DNA of 64,000 nucleotides from NCBI GenBank assembly GCA_034231615.1, contig CM067299.1:16942555-17006554 (forward strand). Direction: 5' to 3'. Each line of letters starts with the position of its first letter. The stretch's first letter is position 1. This DNA is from Meghimatium bilineatum (taxonomy: Eukaryota > Mollusca > Gastropoda > Stylommatophora > Philomycidae). The translations under genes were made by a program, and so were the position numbers. The notes under the pieces are model-generated. The model did no database searches. It worked only from the letters and a program-made list of their open reading frames with translations, and was not told the DNA's origin. This document shows positions 397 to 54,462 of this stretch, one piece after another.

Positions 397-594
397 CTGT
401 TTAGAAAGTTTCTCCCATGTTTTCTTGAGTCTATACACAGAACTATTTACAAATGCTGCACATATCTGCAGAACACCATTATAGTTGTGCATGACACGAC
501 ATATGTCAGCAATGGCCGCCCACTTTTCTATGCATGCCACTCTGTCTTGCATGTTTGATCTGCACACAATCTCCGAAACAACCAATCGGCTCAC
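397..594 (-). CDS. RASGRF: RASGRF exon 12: CDC25 catalytic core, first half
   Basis: This 198-nt exon (66 codons, phase 0/0) lies between acceptor gactttag and donor gtgaga. It encodes VSRLVVSEIVCRSNMQDRVA, then CIEKWAAIADICRVMHNYNG, then a segment ending VYRLKKTWEKLSKQ. I-E-K-W-x-x-(V/I)-A-D-I-C-R-x-x-H-N-Y-N and Y-R-L-K-K-T-W are hallmark RasGEF helices next to the Ras-binding site. The following catalytic-hairpin exons lie before position 1. Confidence 0.95.
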
Positions 595-6329: not shown

Positions 6330-6786
6330 AACTTTCTTGTTAGGAACTGCTTGATCATTATACACGGAGCATTCCCATGAATGCTCTGCTCTTGCCATTC
6401 CATCAGCTATCTGAAAGTATCCAATGGTTGTGGATTCTTCTTCTTCAAGTGAGGACACACTTTCTCCCCTGGTGACTCACATTTCTATTATTCTCTGAAC
6501 ATGTACTTTGTTCACCATCCTCTTAATTATTTTGTAGCGTATCCATAACTCCTTTAAATAATTTAGCCTGATCACTTTTTTCTCATCACTTCGCCATCAG
6601 CTATAGCTATACCCACCAATGTGTCAGCTCTTTCATTACTCCTGACTCCCTCACATGATCAGGACAGTAGATCCATGTTATGTTCTTGGCATTGTTGAGA
6701 AGAGGTCCCACTATTTTCTTATCATGTATTTTCCTATCTCGCACAATATATTCTGGGAGTCTGATATAATTACTGTAGGTAAAACC
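6330..6786 (-). mobile_element. RNase H-LINE 3' fragment
   Basis: The minus strand shows TVIISDSQNILCEIGKY (the catalytic-Asp strand of RNase H). It continues to a decayed terminal segment with IIEMGVTRGESVSS and AEHSWECSVYND, the zinc-knuckle-like end of this LINE family. Its upstream edge abuts the large minisatellite exactly at 6786/6787. Confidence 0.65.
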
Positions 6787-9150
6787 TTCAACAGGTCTTC
6801 ATCATTACTTATATCTCCACCCCTCCCTTGCTCACCTCCCTTCAACAGGTCTTCATCATTACTTATATCTCCACCCCTCCCTTGCTCACCTCCCTTCAAC
6901 AGGTCTTCATCATTACTTATATCTCCACCCGTCCCTTGCTCACCTCCCTTCAACAGGTCTTCATCATTACTTATATCTCCACCCCTCCCCTGCTCACCTC
7001 CCTTAAACAGGTCTTCATCATTACTTATATCTCCACCCCTCCCTTGTTCACCTCCCTTAAACAGGTCTTCATCATTACTTATATCTCCATCCCTCCCTTA
7101 AACATGTCTTCATCATTACTTATATCTCCACCCCTCCCTTGTTCACCTCCCTTAAACAGGTCTTCATCATTACTTATATCTCCACCCCTCCCTTAAACAT
7201 GTCTTCATCATTACTTATATCTCCACCCCTCCCTTGTTCACCTCCCTTAAACAGGTCTTCATCATTACTTACTTCTCCACCCCTCCCTTGCTCACCTCCC
7301 TTCAACAGGTCTTCATCATTACTTATATCTCCACCCCTCCATTGTTCACCTCCCTTCAACAGGTCTTCATCATTACTTATATCTCCACCCATCCCTTGCT
7401 CACCTCCTTTCAACAGGTCTTCATCATTACTTATATCTCCACCCGTCCCTTGCTCACCTCCCTTCAACAGGTCTTCATCATTACTTATTTCTCCACCCCT
7501 CCCTTGCTCACCTCCCTTAAACAGGTCTTCATCATTATTTCTCCACCCCTCCCATGCTCACCTCCCTTCAACAGGTCTTCATCATTACTTATATCTCCAC
7601 CCCTCCATTGCTCACCTCCCTTCAACAGGTCTTCATCATTACTTATATCTCCACCCCTCCCTTGCTCACCTCCCTTCAACAGGTCTTCATCATTACTTAT
7701 ATCTCCACCCGTCCCTTGCTCACCTCCCTTCAACAGGTCTTCATCATTACTTATATCTCCACCCATCCCTTGCTCACCTCCTTTCAACAGGTCTTCATCA
7801 TTACTTATTTCTCCACCCGTCCCTTGCTCACCTCCCTTCAACAGGTCTTCATCATTACTTATATCTCCACCCCTCCCTTGCTCACCTCCCTTAAACAGGT
7901 CTTCATCATTACTTATATCTCCACCCCTCCCTTGCTCACCTCCCTTCAACAGGTCTTCATCATTACTTATATCTCCACCCGTCCCTTGCTCACCTCCCTT
8001 CAACAGGTCTTCATCATTACTTATATCTCCACCCATCCCTTGCTCACCTCCTTTCAACAGGTCTTCATCATTACTTATTTCTCCACCCGTCCCTTGCTCA
8101 CCTCCCTTCAACAGGTCTTCATCATTACTTATATCTCCACCCCTCCCTTGCTCACCTCCCTTAAACAGGTCTTCATCATTACTTATATCTCCACCCCTCC
8201 CTTGTTCACCTCCCTTAAACAGGTCTTCATCATTACTTATATCTCCACCCCTCCCTTGCTCACCTCCCTTCAACAGGTCTTCATCATTACTTATATCTCC
8301 ACCCCTCCATTGCTCACCTCCCTTCAACAGGTCTTCATCATTACTTATATCTCCACCCCTCCCTTGCTCACCTCCCTTCACTAGGTCTTCATCATTACTT
8401 ATATCTCCACCCGTCCCTTGCTCACCTCCCTTCAACAGGTCTTCATCATTACTTATATCTCCACCCATCCCTTGCTCACCTCCTTTCAACAGGTCTTCAT
8501 CATTACTTATTTCTCCACCCGTCCCTTGCTCACCTCCCTTCAACAGGTCTTCATCATTACTTATATCTCCACCCCTCCCTTGCTCACCTCCCTCAAACAG
8601 GTCTTCATCATTACTTATATCTCCACCCCTCCCTTGTTCACCTCCCTTAAACAGGTCTTCATCATTACTTATATCTCCACCCCTCCCTTGCTCACCTCCC
8701 TTCAACAGGTCTTCATCATTACTTATATCTCCACCCGTCCCTTGCTCACCTCCCTTCAACAGGTCTTCATCATTACTTATATCTCCACCCATCCCTTGCT
8801 CACCTCCTTTCAACAGGTCTTCATCATTACTTATTTCTCCACCCGTCCCTTGCTCACCTCCCTTCAACAGGTCTTCATCATTACTTATATCTCCACCCCT
8901 CCCTTGCTCACCTCCCTTAAACAGGTCTTCATCATTACTTATTTCTCCACCCCTCCCTTGCTCACCTCCCTTCAACAGGTCTTCATCATTGCTTATATCT
9001 CCACCCGTCCCTTGCTCACCTCCCTTCAACAGGTCTTCATCATTACTTATTTCTCCACCCCTCCCTTGCTCACCTCCCTTCAACAGGTCTTCATCATTAC
9101 TTATATCTCCACCCCTCCCTTGCTCACCTCCCTTCAACAGGTCTTCATCA
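6787..9150. repeat. 54-bp minisatellite, about 44 units, with higher-order structure
   Basis: The unit begins aacaggtcttcatcattact and continues to ctcacctcccttc; its period is 54 bp. Units differ at a few diagnostic positions (ccctcc, ccgtcc or ccatcc; tatatc or tatttc; cttcaa, ctttcaa or cttaaa). The order G-A-G-C-C recurs, with the A-type unit at 7387, 7761, 8031, 8463 and 8787, spaced 7 (minus 4 bp), 5, 8 and 6 units apart. Two units lack 13 bp (near 7095 and 7190) and one lacks 4 bp (near 7530). Because 54 is divisible by 3 and the unit lacks stops in several frames, long open frames appear on both strands: an 18-residue Ser/Pro repeat on plus and a Gly/Asp/Glu repeat on minus. I read these as by-products. 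It lies in the intron between RASGRF exons 9 and 10. Confidence 0.95.
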
Positions 9151-17645: not shown

Positions 17646-18186
17646 AAACAACACAACCATCATCTCGTGCAATTTTACCGGAATCAATTTTACCGCTTGC
17701 CAGCAGTGCACTACTATTTCCAAAACTTTTAATACCTGCATTGATCTGACCATGCCAGGATGTGCAGTCATAACCTGTGGTTTACCAAGAGTTGGGTCAA
17801 CTAGCTGTAGTGCTTGAGAAGTGAAATTTTCTGACCTGAAAGCTTTCCAATGCACAACTCACCAATAGAACATTCTTTTGTGGAAAATGCTCGTTTGGCA
17901 TGGAAACAACATAATCATCCCAACAAAGTTGAGAACCTGATCAACAAAGTTTCGATGCTTTTCAACTTATACTTTTGTGTGATCTCCAAACCAGGATGTG
18001 ATCCTGTCATCGTATACCAAGGAGCTTTCTCAGGAATCAATTATTCAAAAATATTAAAATAGTTATGCCACTTTGCATGCCAGTCTAGGATTCTGCTGTT
18101 TAAGGTTAACTGCATGACTTTATTAGTTTGGTTTCCAAGCTGAAATCAAACCAGATACAAACATTTGCATAAATACCCCCCAAAGC

Positions 18187-20574: not shown

Positions 20575-21935
20575 GATAGATAGTTAGTTAGTTAGTTAGT
20601 CGTCAGATCATCATCACTGCAAACTGGACACATCCATAGTTGCTCCGATCTCTCCTTGAGTGTATCCGCCATCACACTTCTGCTGACAGTACCAGTCCTA
20701 TGCTGGTTGACCATAACAATCTTTGCTCACACTGCGCAGCAGCCATAACCTTCATTGCTGCTAAGCCTTTGCCTGCCCTTATGATAATGTGGTCAACATG
20801 TTCCCTGAAACTCAGGCTTCTGTCAAAAAAACACACCCAGATATCTCATTGTGCTAGTTCTTTCTAAACTTTTCCCGGACAACGAATCTTGTGGCATGGG
20901 TGTCTTTACCATGTGATTGTTCAAGGAAAACCATGTCACGGATGCCTTAAACAGATTAACCACTGCTCCTGTATCTCGACACCAATTTGTCAGTCTGTCC
21001 AGCTCCTTCTGTAGTTCCACAATGCACTCTTCTCGATTTCTGCCCTGTCTATACACCAGGATATCATCGGCATATGACATCGTTCTGCCAACACCTGTGA
21101 TTTGATTGCCAGCGATATGTACTGTGTATACATTGAAAAGTATAGGAGATAGAGGCGATCCCTGTGGCAGGCCAGGGCTAATAACCGTTGGTGTAGATAT
21201 CCAGTTACCACACTTAAAAACTACAACCCTGTGCATCAGGGCGGCGCCAACCCAACGCATGACAAAAGGATTAACTGCAAGATTTAACAGCTGGTGCATC
21301 AAGATATCCAAGGACACCCTATTGTACGCATCCTCAAGGTCTTTTTGCGACCACACATGTCTCCATGCGCGAATCGAACCCCTCAAAAACATCCTGCGCA
21401 AATATGGCTGCATTCTGCCATGTCTTCTTTCCTGGACGATATCCTCCTAACAATGTTGGTAAACACTTATTTCTTTCAAGATAACACGATACCTTCCGGG
21501 CCACAATTTTTTCCAAAAGCTTGCCAATCGTATTCTGCATATTATTATTCTGTAGCCATGTATCCTGGTGTGGTCCTTCCCAGGTTTGGGTAGTGGAACT
21601 AAATAGCTGTGCAACCAGTCTTCTTTCACTGTGCCCTTTAGTAGGCTATTATTGAACATGTCCGCCAACTCTCCCAACTCCTCATCCGTTCTTCGACTAA
21701 TGTCATCGTATCTAATGCCATCTGGCCCTGGTGCTGTGTTTTTTGTACTTTTCAGTGCCTTCCTGATTTCTTCAACTGTGATTAGCATATGGTTTTCCAT
21801 GCTCAAGTTCTTACACGTGTCTGTGAGCGTTTTCCTGATTTCTTGATATGCCTCCACATTTCTCTGACCAATTTGTGCGGTGTAGTGTGCCAGCAACGCT
21901 GCACCTTTTGTCTCGTCCGTCTTCTGCTAGACGGT
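20575..21935 (-). mobile_element. Jockey/I-like LINE reverse transcriptase, degraded
   Basis: Minus-strand frames give in order: RT fingers (KNTAPGPDGIRYDDI; LVPLPKPGKD), GGYRPGKKTWQNAAIF, the palm (DLEDAYNRVS), LPQGSPLSPILFNVY, the catalytic MSYADDILVYRQG and NLFKASVTWFSL. At least two frameshifts occur (near 21400 and 21540). The thumb and RNase H part is lost: an internal deletion joins the RT to the 3' terminal tagttagttagttagt tail at 20583-20600. A related plus-strand copy is at 50225-51135. Confidence 0.85.
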
Positions 21936-25726: not shown

Positions 25727-25815
25727 CTCATAATTATTAAATATCCAATTTTTCAAGATATTAATGACCCTCAAAGTGCGAGCAGAACCAATAACAACGG
25801 ATGAGTTTGCCTGAC
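25727..25815 (-). CDS. RASGRF: RASGRF exon 8b: REM closing helix, divergent version (alternative exon)
   Basis: This 89-nt exon lies between acceptor ctgtgcag and donor gtaatg and encodes QANSSVVIGSAR followed by TLRVINILKNWIFNNYE. It aligns with exon 8a (MRVLNVLKHWVSKHQQ) at the R-V-x-N-x-L-K-x-W core and then joins the same DFESD sequence. It also starts in phase 1 and ends in phase 0. The longer vestibule of exon 8a is missing, and the helix C-terminus is changed from SKHQQ to FNNYE. The open frame and both splice sites are intact, so it reads as a functional alternative exon rather than a decayed duplicate. Its use needs RNA evidence. Confidence 0.82.
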
Positions 25816-26685
25816 CTGCACAGAGCACAAAACACAATGCACAACATTAAGCATAGCAAATGCCCAGGTTGGTGAATGCCATTACACAGCACGTGTACAC
25901 AGTAGTGGAGACTGCAAACCAACAGATCCAGATGTCTGATTCCTATGTATCACTATGCAGAAGATAATTTCAATGACAGCTCTGCATTAATATTCATTGA
26001 CCAAGGTAGTCTTATGGGCTAGGAATAATCTGTTTTCTGTATATAGACAAGTGATTTTTCAAGTTGTGAATGGCTAAAGTTACCAAGAATAAATGGAGCA
26101 AACAAATTATTTTCATTAAATTCCTTAGTTGTCCTTCAAGGAGTAGACTGCAGTAAAATTAAATACCAAAAGTAAAAGCACACAACATGAAAAAATAGTT
26201 TTTAAAAATAAATGTATAAAAATAAATGTTTTGACAAAAAGGCCTTACTCGTTAATCAAGCACAACACACGCACATAATTTGCATCAGTAAAATGTAAAG
26301 AGTATAGTATATGTTTATAAGTATATATAGTACTATAAGTATATATTAGTACTATATAAGTACTTTAATAGTATAGTTATATATATATATTCAATAGTAT
26401 ACTTATATAGTATAGTTTACAGTAAAAAGTAAAGTATATGTTTAGTTACATACATATGACAGAAATGGATAGGTTATAGTTCTTTATCACTGAAAAACAA
26501 GTACCATTTTTATATTTACTTTATTTAAAAAAGGCCTTTTGGTCAAAACATCAATGTTGACTGTTGCTATTCTTTGGAAAGACACATTATCTAGTTTTTC
26601 TTTTAATGTTAATTTCTCAACAAAAAACAATATGTTAAAAATAAATATACCTTCATCATTGGGCCTACAAATTAGAATTTGTAAG
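25816..26685. other. Intron between exons 8a and 8b, AT-rich part
   Basis: A tata/agtatatagt-rich stretch lies at 26300-26420. No element was identified. Because it flanks the alternative exon it may hold splicing signals that I cannot assign. Confidence 0.4.
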
Positions 26686-26687
26686 AA

Positions 26688-27010
26688 GCCAATAAAAGGA
26701 AGATTTATTGTAAGACGCCAACAAGGGGAAGATGTATTGTACGATGCCAGGGAAGATCTATTGTAAGAAGTAAATAATGAGAAGATTTATTGTAAGAAGT
26801 AAATAAGGGGAAGATTTATTGTAAGAAGTAAATAAGGGGAAGATTTATTGTAAGAAGTAAATAAGGGGAAGATTTATTGTAAGAAGTAAATAAGAGGAAG
26901 ATTTATTGTAAGAAGTAAATAATGGGAAAATTTATTGTAAGAGGTAAATGAGAGGAAGATTTATTGTAAGAAGTAAATGAGGGGAAGATTTATTATAAGA
27001 AGTAAATATG
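26688..27010. repeat. 29-bp minisatellite, about 11 units
   Basis: The unit aagaagtaaataaggggaag then atttattgt repeats with small changes. It lies in the intron between the alternative exons 8a and 8b. Confidence 0.92.
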
Positions 27011-27044
27011 GGTAACTTATTTGTAAACAAATATAGAAAGCTTA

Positions 27045-27230
27045 TCCTGTACTATGGCTATGTAGCGGCAGATTACAGAAGTGTCTCTGATGGTCTAGAC
27101 ACAGAATTCCCACTGCAGGCAATTGTGCATTCAGACCATTCCAAAAGCAATGGCAAAATAATGAAGTATTTGTTTTGCCTAGAAAATTATTACAGCTCAA
27201 AATGCTTGGTTGATAGTTATAACCTAAATA
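27045..27230 (+). repeat. SINE-like element
   Basis: Contains tgatggtctagacacagaat (degraded B-box side), aggcaattgtgcattcagac, tttgcctagaaaattatt and a ttggttgatagttat tail. It matches the 985-1180 copy through most of its length. Confidence 0.6.
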
Positions 27231-27935
27231 GGATATGCTACCAATTATCCCATACTAATTTGTGTTACTAATCACTTATATGTATTCTTATATTGGCACA
27301 GTTTGCATGTGAATGTTTTTCCATGCTACAAATGTATAATGCCCATACAAAAATCTATTATGCACATTATAACTAAAATAATTACCAGAACTACCATCTC
27401 GAAGAGTTACAAGAGAAATCAAGAAAGCATTCTCAGGTCTTTAATACAGTATATTATAGGTCTATACAATGAATGCATGGAACTAAAATTTTAAGAACAA
27501 GAGTGGGCGGTCACAAAGACAGAAGTACATTTGAAACCAGAATTAAAGTAACCAGTCTCATGAGCAGATAAAGAAAAATAATACCAAATAATGAGTGTGG
27601 ATATGAAAGAGAAAAAAGTAAATGAAAGTGCTATCAATAGTAAACATGACAAGATAGATGTTTTGATTTACAAAACCTTCACCAGGCTGAAAAGCACTGA
27701 GAAAACTATACAGAGACACACATATTATGTTTGTCCTTTGTTGTTTTTTTATCCTTATAAAGGATTTTTTAGAAATATTGTCTGTCTTGATTTTGCTGTT
27801 GTAGGCCTATATCATGTTATTATTTTCCATTCATACTCACATTAGCCCCTATATTTCCAACGTTTTGTGTTATCCCAGACACTGGTAGTATAATTCAATA
27901 CAAAATAGTAATTAGTGAAAAGCAATGTTATACTT
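27231..27935. other. Intron without clear element
   Basis: Nothing recognisable on either strand. Confidence 0.45.
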
Positions 27936-27940
27936 TACTA

Positions 27941-28208
27941 CAGTGGTTTTCAACATGGGCCATGGAGGTTTGATGTGGAACATATTGACAAATTTATAAA
28001 TTCTGGTGGGGGGAGGGCCACAGATCCATACATGGAGCTACAAAAAGGCAACAATTTGAAATATATAAAAAAAATTATAGCGCAGAAAGTTTAAAAAGTC
28101 TTGTTGACCGGCAAAGAAATTCAATGACTTTTTATGCACCAGTGAACCACAGGATAAAATTTGTCACAAAAGGGAACCACAGGTAAAAAAAAAGGCTGAA
28201 AATCACTG
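27941..28208. mobile_element. hAT-type MITE
   Basis: The left end is cagtggttttcaacatgggc and the right end, reverse complemented, is cagtgattttcagcc. These are imperfect inverted CAGTG(G/A)TTTTCA ends typical of hAT elements. The flanking 8-mers (ctttacta and ttttagtg) match at only about five positions. There is no coding frame. Confidence 0.6.
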
Positions 28209-28664
28209 TTTTAGTGAATGAAAGAGATGATGATAAAAGGCAAGATGGTGAACACACGAAAAAGTGGTTGAAATATGTTACAAATACAACACTATCATAC
28301 ACAAACAGTGAATGATGCCAAGTTAAAGTATAGGGAGATACAAATAAACTATAGGGCCTATATTATGTGCATTCAAACTCAGATTTTCAATCAACACATG
28401 CCTGGTAAATTCAACCATTTCAGTGTTAATATATTCATTTAGGTTTCTTCTATTGTGACACTGAGGCAGTGAATGATGCTGAAATATTTTTTGTGTGTTA
28501 AGGCAACTAAAAGAAAAGTTTACTTTTAATTAGTTTATTAAATTGTTTAAAAAATACTGTATGCATAGGTGTCAACTAGCACTGATTTTCTGTATTAATA
28601 TGGATTTCAGGGCTTAAAAAAAAAAAAAAAATGTGTGGAGTTCCCCAACATCTGATAAGCTTAT

Positions 28665-29645
28665 GTCAGAGCATATACATCAATAGTTAATGCGCAGAAA
28701 GAACGAGCACAGGTACATCCAATAATTTCTAAATTTACTTAGGAGTGAGGCAGGGATGTGTACTATTCCCTCCTTTCTATTGTTCATAACATACATAGAT
28801 CATATCTGCAAAATAGCAAAGACAATGGAAAAAACAATCTAATGGATAACTTAAATGAATTGCTATTTGCAGACGACCAAGCACTAGTAGTATCATCAGA
28901 AGAGCAACTACAAAAACAAATAGTTTACATCAAACATGCTTTACCTTTAGCATGAAGATAACTATAGAAAAGACCGAAGTAATGAAGATAGGAAGAACAG
29001 AAAGAAACACCAATATCTATATATATTATATATTGGAAACAAAAGACTTGAACAAGTGAAAAAAATCAAATACCTAGGAAGCAATACAACAACAGACGGC
29101 AAGAGTAGTAAAGAAATACATAATAGATGTAGTAAAGCATACCAAGCCCTAAGGCAAATGACATCAATCTTCAGAAACAAAAAATGTAGATTTAAACACC
29201 AAAATAACACTATTCAAAACGACTATTATGCCAACGCTGTGCTACCAATGCCAAACATGGACAATGATAGCACAAGACAAACATAAACTTGTGACAGCTG
29301 AAATGGCATGCATATGCAAAATCCTAGGAATAATGCTAAGAGACAGAGTGAGAAATGAGGACATTAGACAAAGAACCAGCACCACCCCAATCTTGGAATA
29401 TATTAAGAGACAACAAATTAAATGGTTTGCACACATCAGCAGACTACCACCAGACATCATACCACAGCAAGCTATGTTACACAGATACATTGAAGGTAGA
29501 CCTAGAGGCGGACCATATTAACGATGGACTACCAAAATAAAAGAGGCAACAAATTCCATAATATACTCAGCACACATGAGGGTCATCTCCAGAAAAATGT
29601 TCTACCCCTGACGCTGAATGGCAACAAAGGGTTTAGCGAAAAGAT
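28665..29645 (+). mobile_element. LINE reverse transcriptase C-terminal half, degraded
   Basis: Follows a (a)n run at 28616-28630. Decayed frames show GVRQGC, ELLFADDQALV (YADD as FADD), KTEVMKIG, KKIKYLGSNTTTDGKSS, LCYQCQTWT and ITRDR-like AEMACICKILGI, and finish with QIKWFAHISRLP and GRPRGG. It ends with the LINE C-terminus shared by several minus-strand fragments. Several frameshifts are present. Confidence 0.75.
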
Positions 29646-30129
29646 AGACTGTTGCTTAAAAACCCAGCGATTAACATGGCGTTACAAATATGTTGCCATT
29701 TTTTAACATCATACTTTTCCAGACAAGCTATATTTAGCAATGGGTGTGGCAGTATTTCTGATCTATCATAGTGTTTTCAATGATCAGTGAAATTGGTCAC
29801 CAAAGTTCTATAACAGATATTTTACGACCCTCATTAGTTATCAGTAAAGTGTTATGGGATTCCCCAGTATTATTAATTTTCTCTACCTCTGCACTTATTT
29901 ATAGAAAACGTTATACACTTTTGTTATATTTTGGACATTAAAGTCACATCCACGACTTAAACATGGATCTGCTTATACACGGAAACATACAGTAATAATT
30001 TACACTGAAGGTGAGTCATTCATCATTAACACCTATGGCTTTTTCTGCACAATCTGGTGGGAAAACTGCCAAAGAATCCAGCTGTGACTTCACCACAATC
30101 ATAAGCAGTCTTATGATGGTGGTAAAAGC

Positions 30130-30420
30130 TGTGACAAAGGCACTGTCATGGTTTATGTCACAATACTATTTTCATCATCCGTAAAGTTAAAGTGGGAGTC
30201 TGACAAGAAAGATTATCATACCTTCATATTCAAGCCTGGAAATGTGGGTGTTGAGGACAATGAGATACACTGGCGAGCATGGCCAGTGTCAAGAGGTACA
30301 TCACTAGATCGCTCTGAAATAGTTACTTCGCTGAAGATCTTAGCTGCTCAGAAGATTTTCGAAAGTGTAAATCATGGTTGCTCTCAAGACTGCATAAGAT
30401 TGGTATAAAGATTGGAACAG
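30130..30420 (+). mobile_element. RNase H-LINE fragment
   Basis: Plus-strand HTFIFKPGNVGVEDNEIHWR corresponds to the F-V-P-G-H-A-G-V-x-G-N-E-x-A-D strand of LINE RNase H, with the His and Asp lost. It is followed by SLDRSEIVTSLK. It is non-functional. Confidence 0.6.
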
Positions 30421-31158
30421 CCGGTAAAGAGAAGCATAATAAATACATGAAGAGACTGATAAATCAACATTGAACATGAACTGTAAGCTCTGATGGATTC
30501 ATTGAGATGGGTATATACGGCCATCCATATCTCTTATATTTTCTGTTGGGCTGCAAATGGCCAGTGGGGTGTATTTTGCCAACCCATTATCTACATGTTT
30601 CAATTTTCTAAGTATTACCAACATGTACTTATATCATAATTATCAGTCTAAATATATTACCTCTTTTTGGTTTTATTCTACAATGATACATATCAGAATG
30701 GAGTTATGTTTAACAAGAAATAAAAAAACAATACAGAATGAGAGGAAGCAAACAAATAAAACTGAATATGAAGTTAAAATGATGATGTCATAAAAGATTA
30801 TTATTATTGTATTACTCATAGGCTGAAGCTGCTGAACTTGTATATGTAGCATGCATAAACTGGTAAAGACATATTAGTCACATACAACAAATATTTCAGA
30901 ACATGATGCAGTTTGGTTAACATGATTATCATTCAAGACATACAACCCAAGAATATTCTTATACAGTTACAGGAAAAAATAAAGCAGTCCCATGACAAGG
31001 ACACATTCAATGCTGGAGATACCAAACAAGTAAGTGGATTACAGTGACATCACTCTCCAACCCCTGAAGCTACATCTGATGACATACATGGTGGCTACAC
31101 TTTCCAACACAGCTGCTAGACAGTGAGCTTGTCAGTGAGTCCATCTTTCTGTCCTTAC
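30421..31158. other. Intron downstream of exon 8a
   Basis: AT-rich with no element identified. Confidence 0.4.
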
Positions 31159-31268
31159 CTGCTGATGCTTTGACACCCAGTGCTTCAACACATTCAGAAC
31201 ACGCATGGTAGCAGCTGTGCTGATCACAGATTCACGTTTTTTCATGACAGGCTGTGCCTCTAAAGTAC
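31159..31268 (-). CDS. RASGRF: RASGRF exon 8a: REM closing helix, canonical version (alternative exon)
   Basis: This 110-nt exon runs from acceptor ataaacag to donor gtaagg. It encodes TLEAQPVMKKRESVISTAAT followed by MRVLNVLKHWVSKHQQ, closely matching the RVLNVLRHWVSKH helix of vertebrate RASGRF. It starts in phase 1 and ends in phase 0, joining exon 7 and the DFESD start of exon 9. Exon 8b encodes the same helix with the same phases, and using both would break the frame. A second acceptor 9 bases downstream is also in frame. Confidence 0.92.
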
Positions 31269-31980
31269 CTGTTTATTTTATATTGGGTGGAATATGTTCA
31301 TTCATAGGTATATCTACATTAACTAATTCAGGAAATATAACAGGTGGGATTGTGGGTATATTATTTCATATTTTTCAGAACACATGTAACATGTCAGAAA
31401 CACTCAAACCGTAAATAAAGTAAGTCAAAGAGAAGAGAAAACTAAAGATTAATTTAGTATTTAAGAATTTTTCTTGTGTTAAAACGTAGTTCTCTTTCTT
31501 TCTTCTATATCATCCTGCACTGATTATTAATATTTAAATAATTTTAGCATATCTTTAATCATACATCGGGCCTGCATATTTTTTTTTCAATAATCTATTT
31601 AATTTACTGAGAAAAGCATTTTCTGATTTTTATATTTCTTAAATTTGTTCAAATTGGTTTATTTTTATATAATTTTGTTTCATGTACAACTCATTATTTT
31701 GTATGAGTTTACCTGATGTTCTCAAGGACACTGCAATATCTTTGGTCCATCATCATTTGACAGCCCTTTTCACTGTTAGCAACAATCATTTATTCTATGA
31801 CTAGTTTCTCCATGATGCTATGTCTCTATATGACCAAAAGACTTCACCTTTCTTTTAAAGTTGTATAAGAGCAAACACTCTTTCAGATTTCTGATACTTA
31901 ACACATCCTGATTCGCTTTTTTCATTGCTCATATTTTCAATATTTTCTAGCATTTCTATAATTTGTTTCATGTACCAAAA
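31269..31980. other. Intron upstream of exon 8a
   Basis: T-rich sequence including the exon 8a acceptor region. Nothing else seen. Confidence 0.4.
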
Positions 31981-54244: not shown

Positions 54245-54462
54245 GGTGCAGCCACAGAATTGAGACTAGTGTTGATATTGCTAGAACTATCTTGACTTGC
54301 TCCTCCCTCATGGTTCTTGTACACTTTCTTGAGAGCATCTAAAAGAATGTGTCCAGTAGTAAATACTCTGTAGGTCAGGAGGAAGGTGTTGAGGAAATCA
54401 ATACTAAGGAACCTCAGATCGGTTAACCGGTCAAGCAGCCGTTCCACACTTGCATGTCGTAT
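54245..54462 (-). CDS. RASGRF: RASGRF exon 3: REM (RasGEF_N) domain, first helices
   Basis: This 218-nt exon lies between acceptor tattttag and donor gtaaga. It begins [20 protein letters not shown] and continues through [18 protein letters not shown] to a Ser/Asn-rich tail after VYKNHEGG. The core is the most diagnostic REM stretch of RASGRF. In the family the REM domain packs against the CDC25 helical hairpin and stabilises it. The exon ends in phase 2, and the next exon supplies the third base of a proline codon. Where vertebrates carry a RSLELFFATS-type extension, this protein has a low-complexity tail. Confidence 0.95.

Follow-up and report, generated by a model that had tools for sequence, protein, structure and literature searches.

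Does the RASGRF-type gene of a gastropod hold two interchangeable versions of one REM-domain helix? The question is raised by a 64,000-nt stretch of the Meghimatium bilineatum genome (GCA_034231615.1, contig CM067299.1, positions 16,942,555 to 17,006,554), which is referred to here as the window. Its minus strand carries a RASGRF-type gene that comprises the N-terminal half of the REM domain, a linker, exons 6 and 7, two versions of exon 8 (8a and 8b), and exons 9 to 11; exons 12 and 13 lie past the window edge. The exon numbering is that of the first-pass annotation of this DNA and our own, and does not come from a database. Exon 8b bears the marks of a genuine second exon 8 that can be read from a genome sequence, and it is most likely one of a mutually exclusive pair. 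It is probably a tandem duplicate of 8a, retained in a coding role, that substitutes for 8a in splicing.

The first-pass annotation had proposed this swap, and its description of the two exons was reproduced when the sequence was re-read. The coordinates and the lengths of 110 nt (8a) and 89 nt (8b) are as claimed, both lengths are 2 mod 3, and both exons are entered in phase 1 and left in phase 0. Both encode R-V-x-N-x-L-K-x-W, which is followed by the DFESD of exon 9. The splice sites of exons 7, 8a, 8b, and 9 are all AG/GT, and of the three frames of 8a and of 8b, just the required one is open in each. The case for exclusivity from the reading frame was also borne out. With exactly one of the two exons, the frame stays open across nine exons, from exon 6 to exon 13 (exon 10b included). 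With neither, a stop codon starts 5 nt into exon 9; with both, it starts 42 nt into 8b, which is 47 nt before the 8b–9 junction and has further junctions downstream (both positions were computed without exon 10b, which lies after these stops). As the frame and, presumably, nonsense-mediated decay give exclusivity, no special machinery would be needed for it at the protein level. A frame shift with nonsense-mediated decay is one route to exclusivity in a human survey (PMC5740500).

The pair resembles the mutually exclusive exons that arise by tandem duplication (PMC5740500, PMC3228551). Like these, 8a and 8b are adjacent homologous internal exons of the same phase and similar length with compatible GT/AG splice sites, and their joint inclusion, like their joint omission, breaks the frame and predicts nonsense-mediated decay. 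They are seven amino acids apart in length, and the WebScipio criteria allow up to 20 (PMC3228551). The differences are that the host is a mollusc RASGRF, that one of two gene copies is without the partner exon, and that exon use is here a prediction from the genome sequence.

The similarity of 8b to 8a was compared with several controls. The anchored BLOSUM62 score of 8b versus 8a is 51, whereas the best scores in 200 introns simulated for the same 17 kb with a second-order Markov model (score anchored at the exon end) had a mean of 11.8, a standard deviation of 4.8, and a maximum of 30. In a WebScipio-like duplicate-exon scan of the introns beside 18 exons, nine from each gene copy, 8b reached 63, compared with 34 for the runner-up in 8a’s own introns and a top score of 33 (at most 0.20 of self) among the other 17 exon sets. 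The score of 8b corresponds to 0.35 of self in local alignment and exceeds the 15% cut-off of WebScipio, which uses global alignment and is only roughly comparable. The helix cores of 8a and 8b align without an indel as far as DFE.

Pfam RasGEF_N matches the two REM halves when they are joined together. In this context (constructs omitting the linker), the score is 82.7 bits with 8a, 74.0 bits with 8b, and 56.1 bits with neither, and six shuffles of 8b give 51.3 to 58.8 bits. The score rises with either exon, and for 8b above both the skipped form and the shuffles, which agrees with the earlier assignment of the helix to the REM domain. The 8b peptide by itself has no Pfam match. The 57-nt core shows 24 differences between 8a and 8b, with 10 at the first, 2 at the second, and 12 at the third codon position. 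Two or fewer second-position changes have a probability of P=0.0005 (hypergeometric count), and neutral change of 8a to an equal distance left a stop-free, equally similar peptide in 37 of 200,000 trials; both figures lean toward selection because the core was picked for its similarity. The second-position deficit is what would be expected of a coding sequence under selection and would be the footprint of past coding selection, not of present use. To this extent, the anatomy of 8b, its frame logic, its homology, and this footprint are established from the sequence.

A third copy, 8c, was considered in the 8b–9 intron at 17694-17800 on the minus strand, where the peptide SMQVLKVLEIVVHCWQA stands before a GT. 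Its anchored score is 20 (null maximum 30), it yields 61.6 bits in the REM context versus 56.1 bits for none, and a high-copy repeat starts right at its end or no more than about 11 bases from it. For this repeat there were 951 candidate places, of which 40 were scored. The peptide was treated as chance or a faint relic.

The searched genome has 32 contigs with a total of 1.61 Gb, and contig C2 holds the window. Contig C1 carries a colinear RASGRF copy with 8a. The two copies share 83% nucleotide identity over exons 7 to 13, with a Ks of 1.13 (NG86) or 0.79 (LWL85), and the 8a protein of C1 is 92% identical to that of the window. The comparison with relatives consists of this one gene copy from the same genome, in which 8a is present and 8b was not detected. 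Thus, once the copies had split, 8b would have disappeared from C1 or been acquired on C2. The two 8a copies disagree at 11 core sites; here 8b sides with C1 five times, with C2 three times, and with neither three times, which gives no support for a late origin from the 8a of C2. There is a weak hint that 8b may be older than the gene duplication and was then lost from C1. Vertebrate RASGRF, which we take to read RVLNVLRHWVSKH at the place of exon 8, would make 8a ancestral. A retrocopy with a 7–8b–9 junction was not seen in the genome because 8b was found at one place only. As a separate observation, 50 matches to Pfam Haemocyan_bet_s, the mollusc-type haemocyanin, were found on C15 and C22 of the same genome, as befits a mollusc; 14 control genomes gave none, a control of little weight. 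The haemocyanin exon clusters lie at C15:48.7-49.2 Mb and C22:44.15-44.27 Mb, on two contigs, in keeping with a duplicated genome. Genome duplication in Stylommatophora has been described (PMC12042801, PMC9392753).

The second copy additionally permits a comparison of splice signals and intron flanks. The pyrimidine share before 8a is 0.45, the lowest of 11 window exons, and in C1 it is 0.50, again the lowest of 10 exons. The tract of 8b is usual (0.65), and the donor of 8a matches 8 of 9 consensus positions. When the C1 and C2 intron flanks of ten exons were compared, most aligned no better than chance. The flanks of 8a are conserved, with scores of 15 upstream and 18 downstream, compared with a maximum of 14 on each side among 90 mismatched pairs. 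Other high scores are those downstream of exon 9 and upstream of exon 10 (13.5 each); a downstream score of 15 for the REM-N exon, which encodes the N-terminal half of the REM domain, includes coding sequence and was not counted. The linker exon donor was not used in the flank and splice-signal comparisons, and the exon pairs 51921-51703 (bounds not settled) and 68854-68735 (upstream) were left out of the flank comparison. The conserved flanks and the poor pyrimidine tract suggest that the splicing of 8a may be regulated or assisted.

Four other explanations of 8b can be distinguished. It is unlikely that 8b is a relic, i.e., a duplicated exon that was once used, is no longer spliced, and has not yet decayed: nothing in its frame, its phase, its two splice sites, or its REM positions is broken, and C1/C2 intron sequence is largely unalignable outside of exons and repeats, even though the C1 copy without 8b, the strong divergence (24/57 core sites), and the weaker donor would suit a relic. 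Clearly less probable is that 8a or 8b serves as a regulated frame-shifting exon, whereby the both-in and both-out forms are made to lower RASGRF via decay and the 8b protein is minor. Such an exon has no need to encode a REM helix, to keep the phase, or to avoid second-position changes. Its appeal lies in the early stops of both forms, the weak 8a acceptor in both copies, and the length of 110 nt, which makes 8a skipping frame-shifting in C1 as well. Moreover, mouse Rasgrf1 is reported to be among the transcripts degraded by nonsense-mediated decay in NOVA double-knockout neurons (PMC3552424), and decay-coupled RASGRF splicing therefore has a precedent.

It is very improbable that 8b is the start of a short transcript driven by a promoter within the intron, with no splicing to exon 7. 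The large introns (5.3 kb on the 8a side, 11.7 kb on the exon 9 side) leave room for a promoter and nothing positive speaks for one, no methionine codon occurs ahead of 8b or inside it in the surrounding open frame (25846-25697), and the 8b acceptor has a normal pyrimidine tract. A chance resemblance of intron sequence to 8a can practically be dismissed, as 8b lies far above the simulated maximum, and the exon-scan and shuffle controls agree.

Besides the choice of the core mentioned above, several findings weigh against a mutually exclusive pair. No 8b was found in the 9.6-kb 8a–9 intron of C1, in which the best anchored score is 3 and the duplicate-exon scan likewise gave none. Genome searches revealed no second 8b, and as the protein search reported 8b alone and not even 8a, this applies to close copies only. 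Divergence is far greater in 8b than in 8a, and the 8b donor agrees with the consensus at 6 of 9 positions, as do those of exons 10b and 13. With 5.3 kb between 8a and 8b, steric hindrance cannot enforce exclusivity. The conservation upstream of 8a is not unique because the upstream flank of the REM-N exon reaches an equal score of 15, and the conserved flanks are not specific to the choice between 8a and 8b because C1, without 8b, has them too. A search for docking/selector pairing of the four 8a/8b flank elements gave best duplexes that stayed inside the range given by six mononucleotide shuffles per element, a weak control with a coarser scanning step for the shuffles than for the real elements.

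In the favored scheme of mutually exclusive exons, exon 7 would be joined to either 8a or 8b and subsequently to exon 9. Transcripts that contain the two exons together, or lack them both, would shift the frame, meet an early stop, and be removed by nonsense-mediated decay, leaving two proteins that differ in 36 versus 29 residues. Exon 8a is presumably the default, as it is present in both gene copies, and 8b, with its fuller tract and weaker donor, would be used when 8a is unrecognized. From this scheme we infer the expression of 8b, exclusivity in the cell, decay of the other forms, regulation, and an effect on Ras activation. Unequal splice signals of duplicated alternative exons are also found in another gene, U2AF1, in its exons 3 and Ab (PMC5224494).

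The swapped segment can be placed on the structure of the SOS proteins. Exon 8a aligns gap-free to the SOS1 helix LRVLNVCRHWVEHHFYDFE (PDB 1bkd_S, phmmer), and 8b aligns weakly to the SOS2 counterpart helix (12.3 bits for that stretch). If the 1bkd_S chain starts at residue 568, as we assume (its 477 residues would then end at 1044), SOS1 L687/R688 would fall on M-R in 8a and on L-R in 8b. By their numbering, we take these two residues to be part of the distal Ras site of SOS1. The first-pass annotation had the REM domain, with this helix, packing on the catalytic hairpin. The REM location of the helix stands, but the alignment suggests that the helix also corresponds to the SOS1 distal Ras site helix and does not form the hairpin surface alone. 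The swap would accordingly exchange the REM helix that in SOS1 carries part of this site and would drop KKRESV just before it. KKRESV is lost in the change from 8a to 8b and identical in the C1 copy; it presumably fits a PKA-type consensus and is a putative site. No link to the serine-916 phosphorylation of vertebrate RasGRF1 is claimed because the vertebrate sequence is not known to have KRESV here. Elsewhere in the genome, an SOS-like REM exon (RVVNVFRHWVDHHFYDFE, L012 1509-1665 on contig C25, read by eye) appears to start within the same helix. RASGRF1 and RASGRF2 resemble the window gene in having a REM half, a long linker, the REM helix, and the CDC25 domain in that order. The REM(-) triple mutant of SOS1 is L687E/R688A/W729E (PMC5658395). 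For RASGRF1, the CDC25 domain has been reported to be sufficient without REM, unlike in SOS1, yet Ras activation in cells did not rise with a RASGRF1 construct that lacked REM (PMC12227644).

A wider scenario is speculative and, on balance, doubtful. The pair could be an old regulatory switch in RASGRF, with an 8a form that has a kinase-controlled KKRESV and one distal Ras-binding helix, and an 8b form that is kinase-blind and reads Ras-GTP feedback differently. One copy would have lost 8b after genome duplication and retained the 8a function only, and REM splicing would tune Ras activation, perhaps in neurons.

The features of the gene are collected in the table.

Table. Features of the RASGRF-type gene in window coordinates, in the direction of transcription
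Feature	Position	Strand	Remarks
REM-N exon (REM domain N-terminal half)	54462..54303	-	start 54462 placed; 54303 is a minimum, 3' end not placed
Linker exon, long, serine-rich	about 48355-47555	-	
Exon 7 (shared upstream partner), 110 nt, left in phase 1	35771-35662	-	AG/GT; 87% DNA identity to C1 over the matched stretch
Conserved intron flank upstream of 8a	31269..31306	-	includes ACATATTCCACC
Exon 8a, 110 nt, version also in the C1 copy	31268-31159	-	encodes (G)TLEAQPVMKKRESVISTAATMRVLNVLKHWVSKHQQ
KKRESV segment in 8a	31225..31242	-	retained in C1, not present in 8b
RVLNVLKHW, REM helix core of 8a	31177..31203	-	aligns to SOS1
Conserved intron flank downstream of 8a	31109..31158	-	
Exon 8b, 89 nt, alternative version, one place in the genome	25815-25727	-	encodes (G)QANSSVVIGSARTLRVINILKNWIFNNYE
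RVINILKNW, REM helix core of 8b	25745..25771	-	weak SOS2 match
Exon 9 (shared downstream partner), 180 nt, entered and left in phase 0	13992-13813	-	starts DFESD
Exon 10, CDC25 side	6221-6124	-	
Exon 10b, CDC25 side	2360-2276	-	
Exon 11, RasGEF (CDC25) domain	397..594	-	Pfam RasGEF 75 bits

Two introns of the gene contain further elements. The exon 9–10 intron harbors a 54-bp tandem array at 6785-9150 with 36 copies in its main part; on the minus strand, an open frame of 555 codons with the repeat ISNDEDLLKGGEQGRGG spans 9152-7488. The 8b–9 intron contains reverse-transcriptase-like frames of a non-LTR element at 20826-21926 on the minus strand (translation judged by eye). Across the window (1-64000), the observed/expected ratio of CpG is 0.28 and TG and CA are raised, which suggests strong DNA methylation here.

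Mutually exclusive exon splicing as such is well described (PMC5740500, PMC3228551, PMC6071210, PMC9741552). No RASGRF isoform that swaps a REM helix appeared in titles and abstract openings on RasGRF exclusive exons, Rasgrf1 splice variants, and mollusc RASGRF, a scope outside of which subscription journals mostly lie, and the 8a/8b pair is likely new for RASGRF. If expressed, it would provide two naturally occurring RASGRF proteins that are identical except for one REM helix and the segment preceding it. Given the report on CDC25 sufficiency (PMC12227644), such natural variants would let the role of REM in RASGRF be tested directly. Again if expressed, 8b would be an alternative exon that one gene copy has kept and the other lacks.

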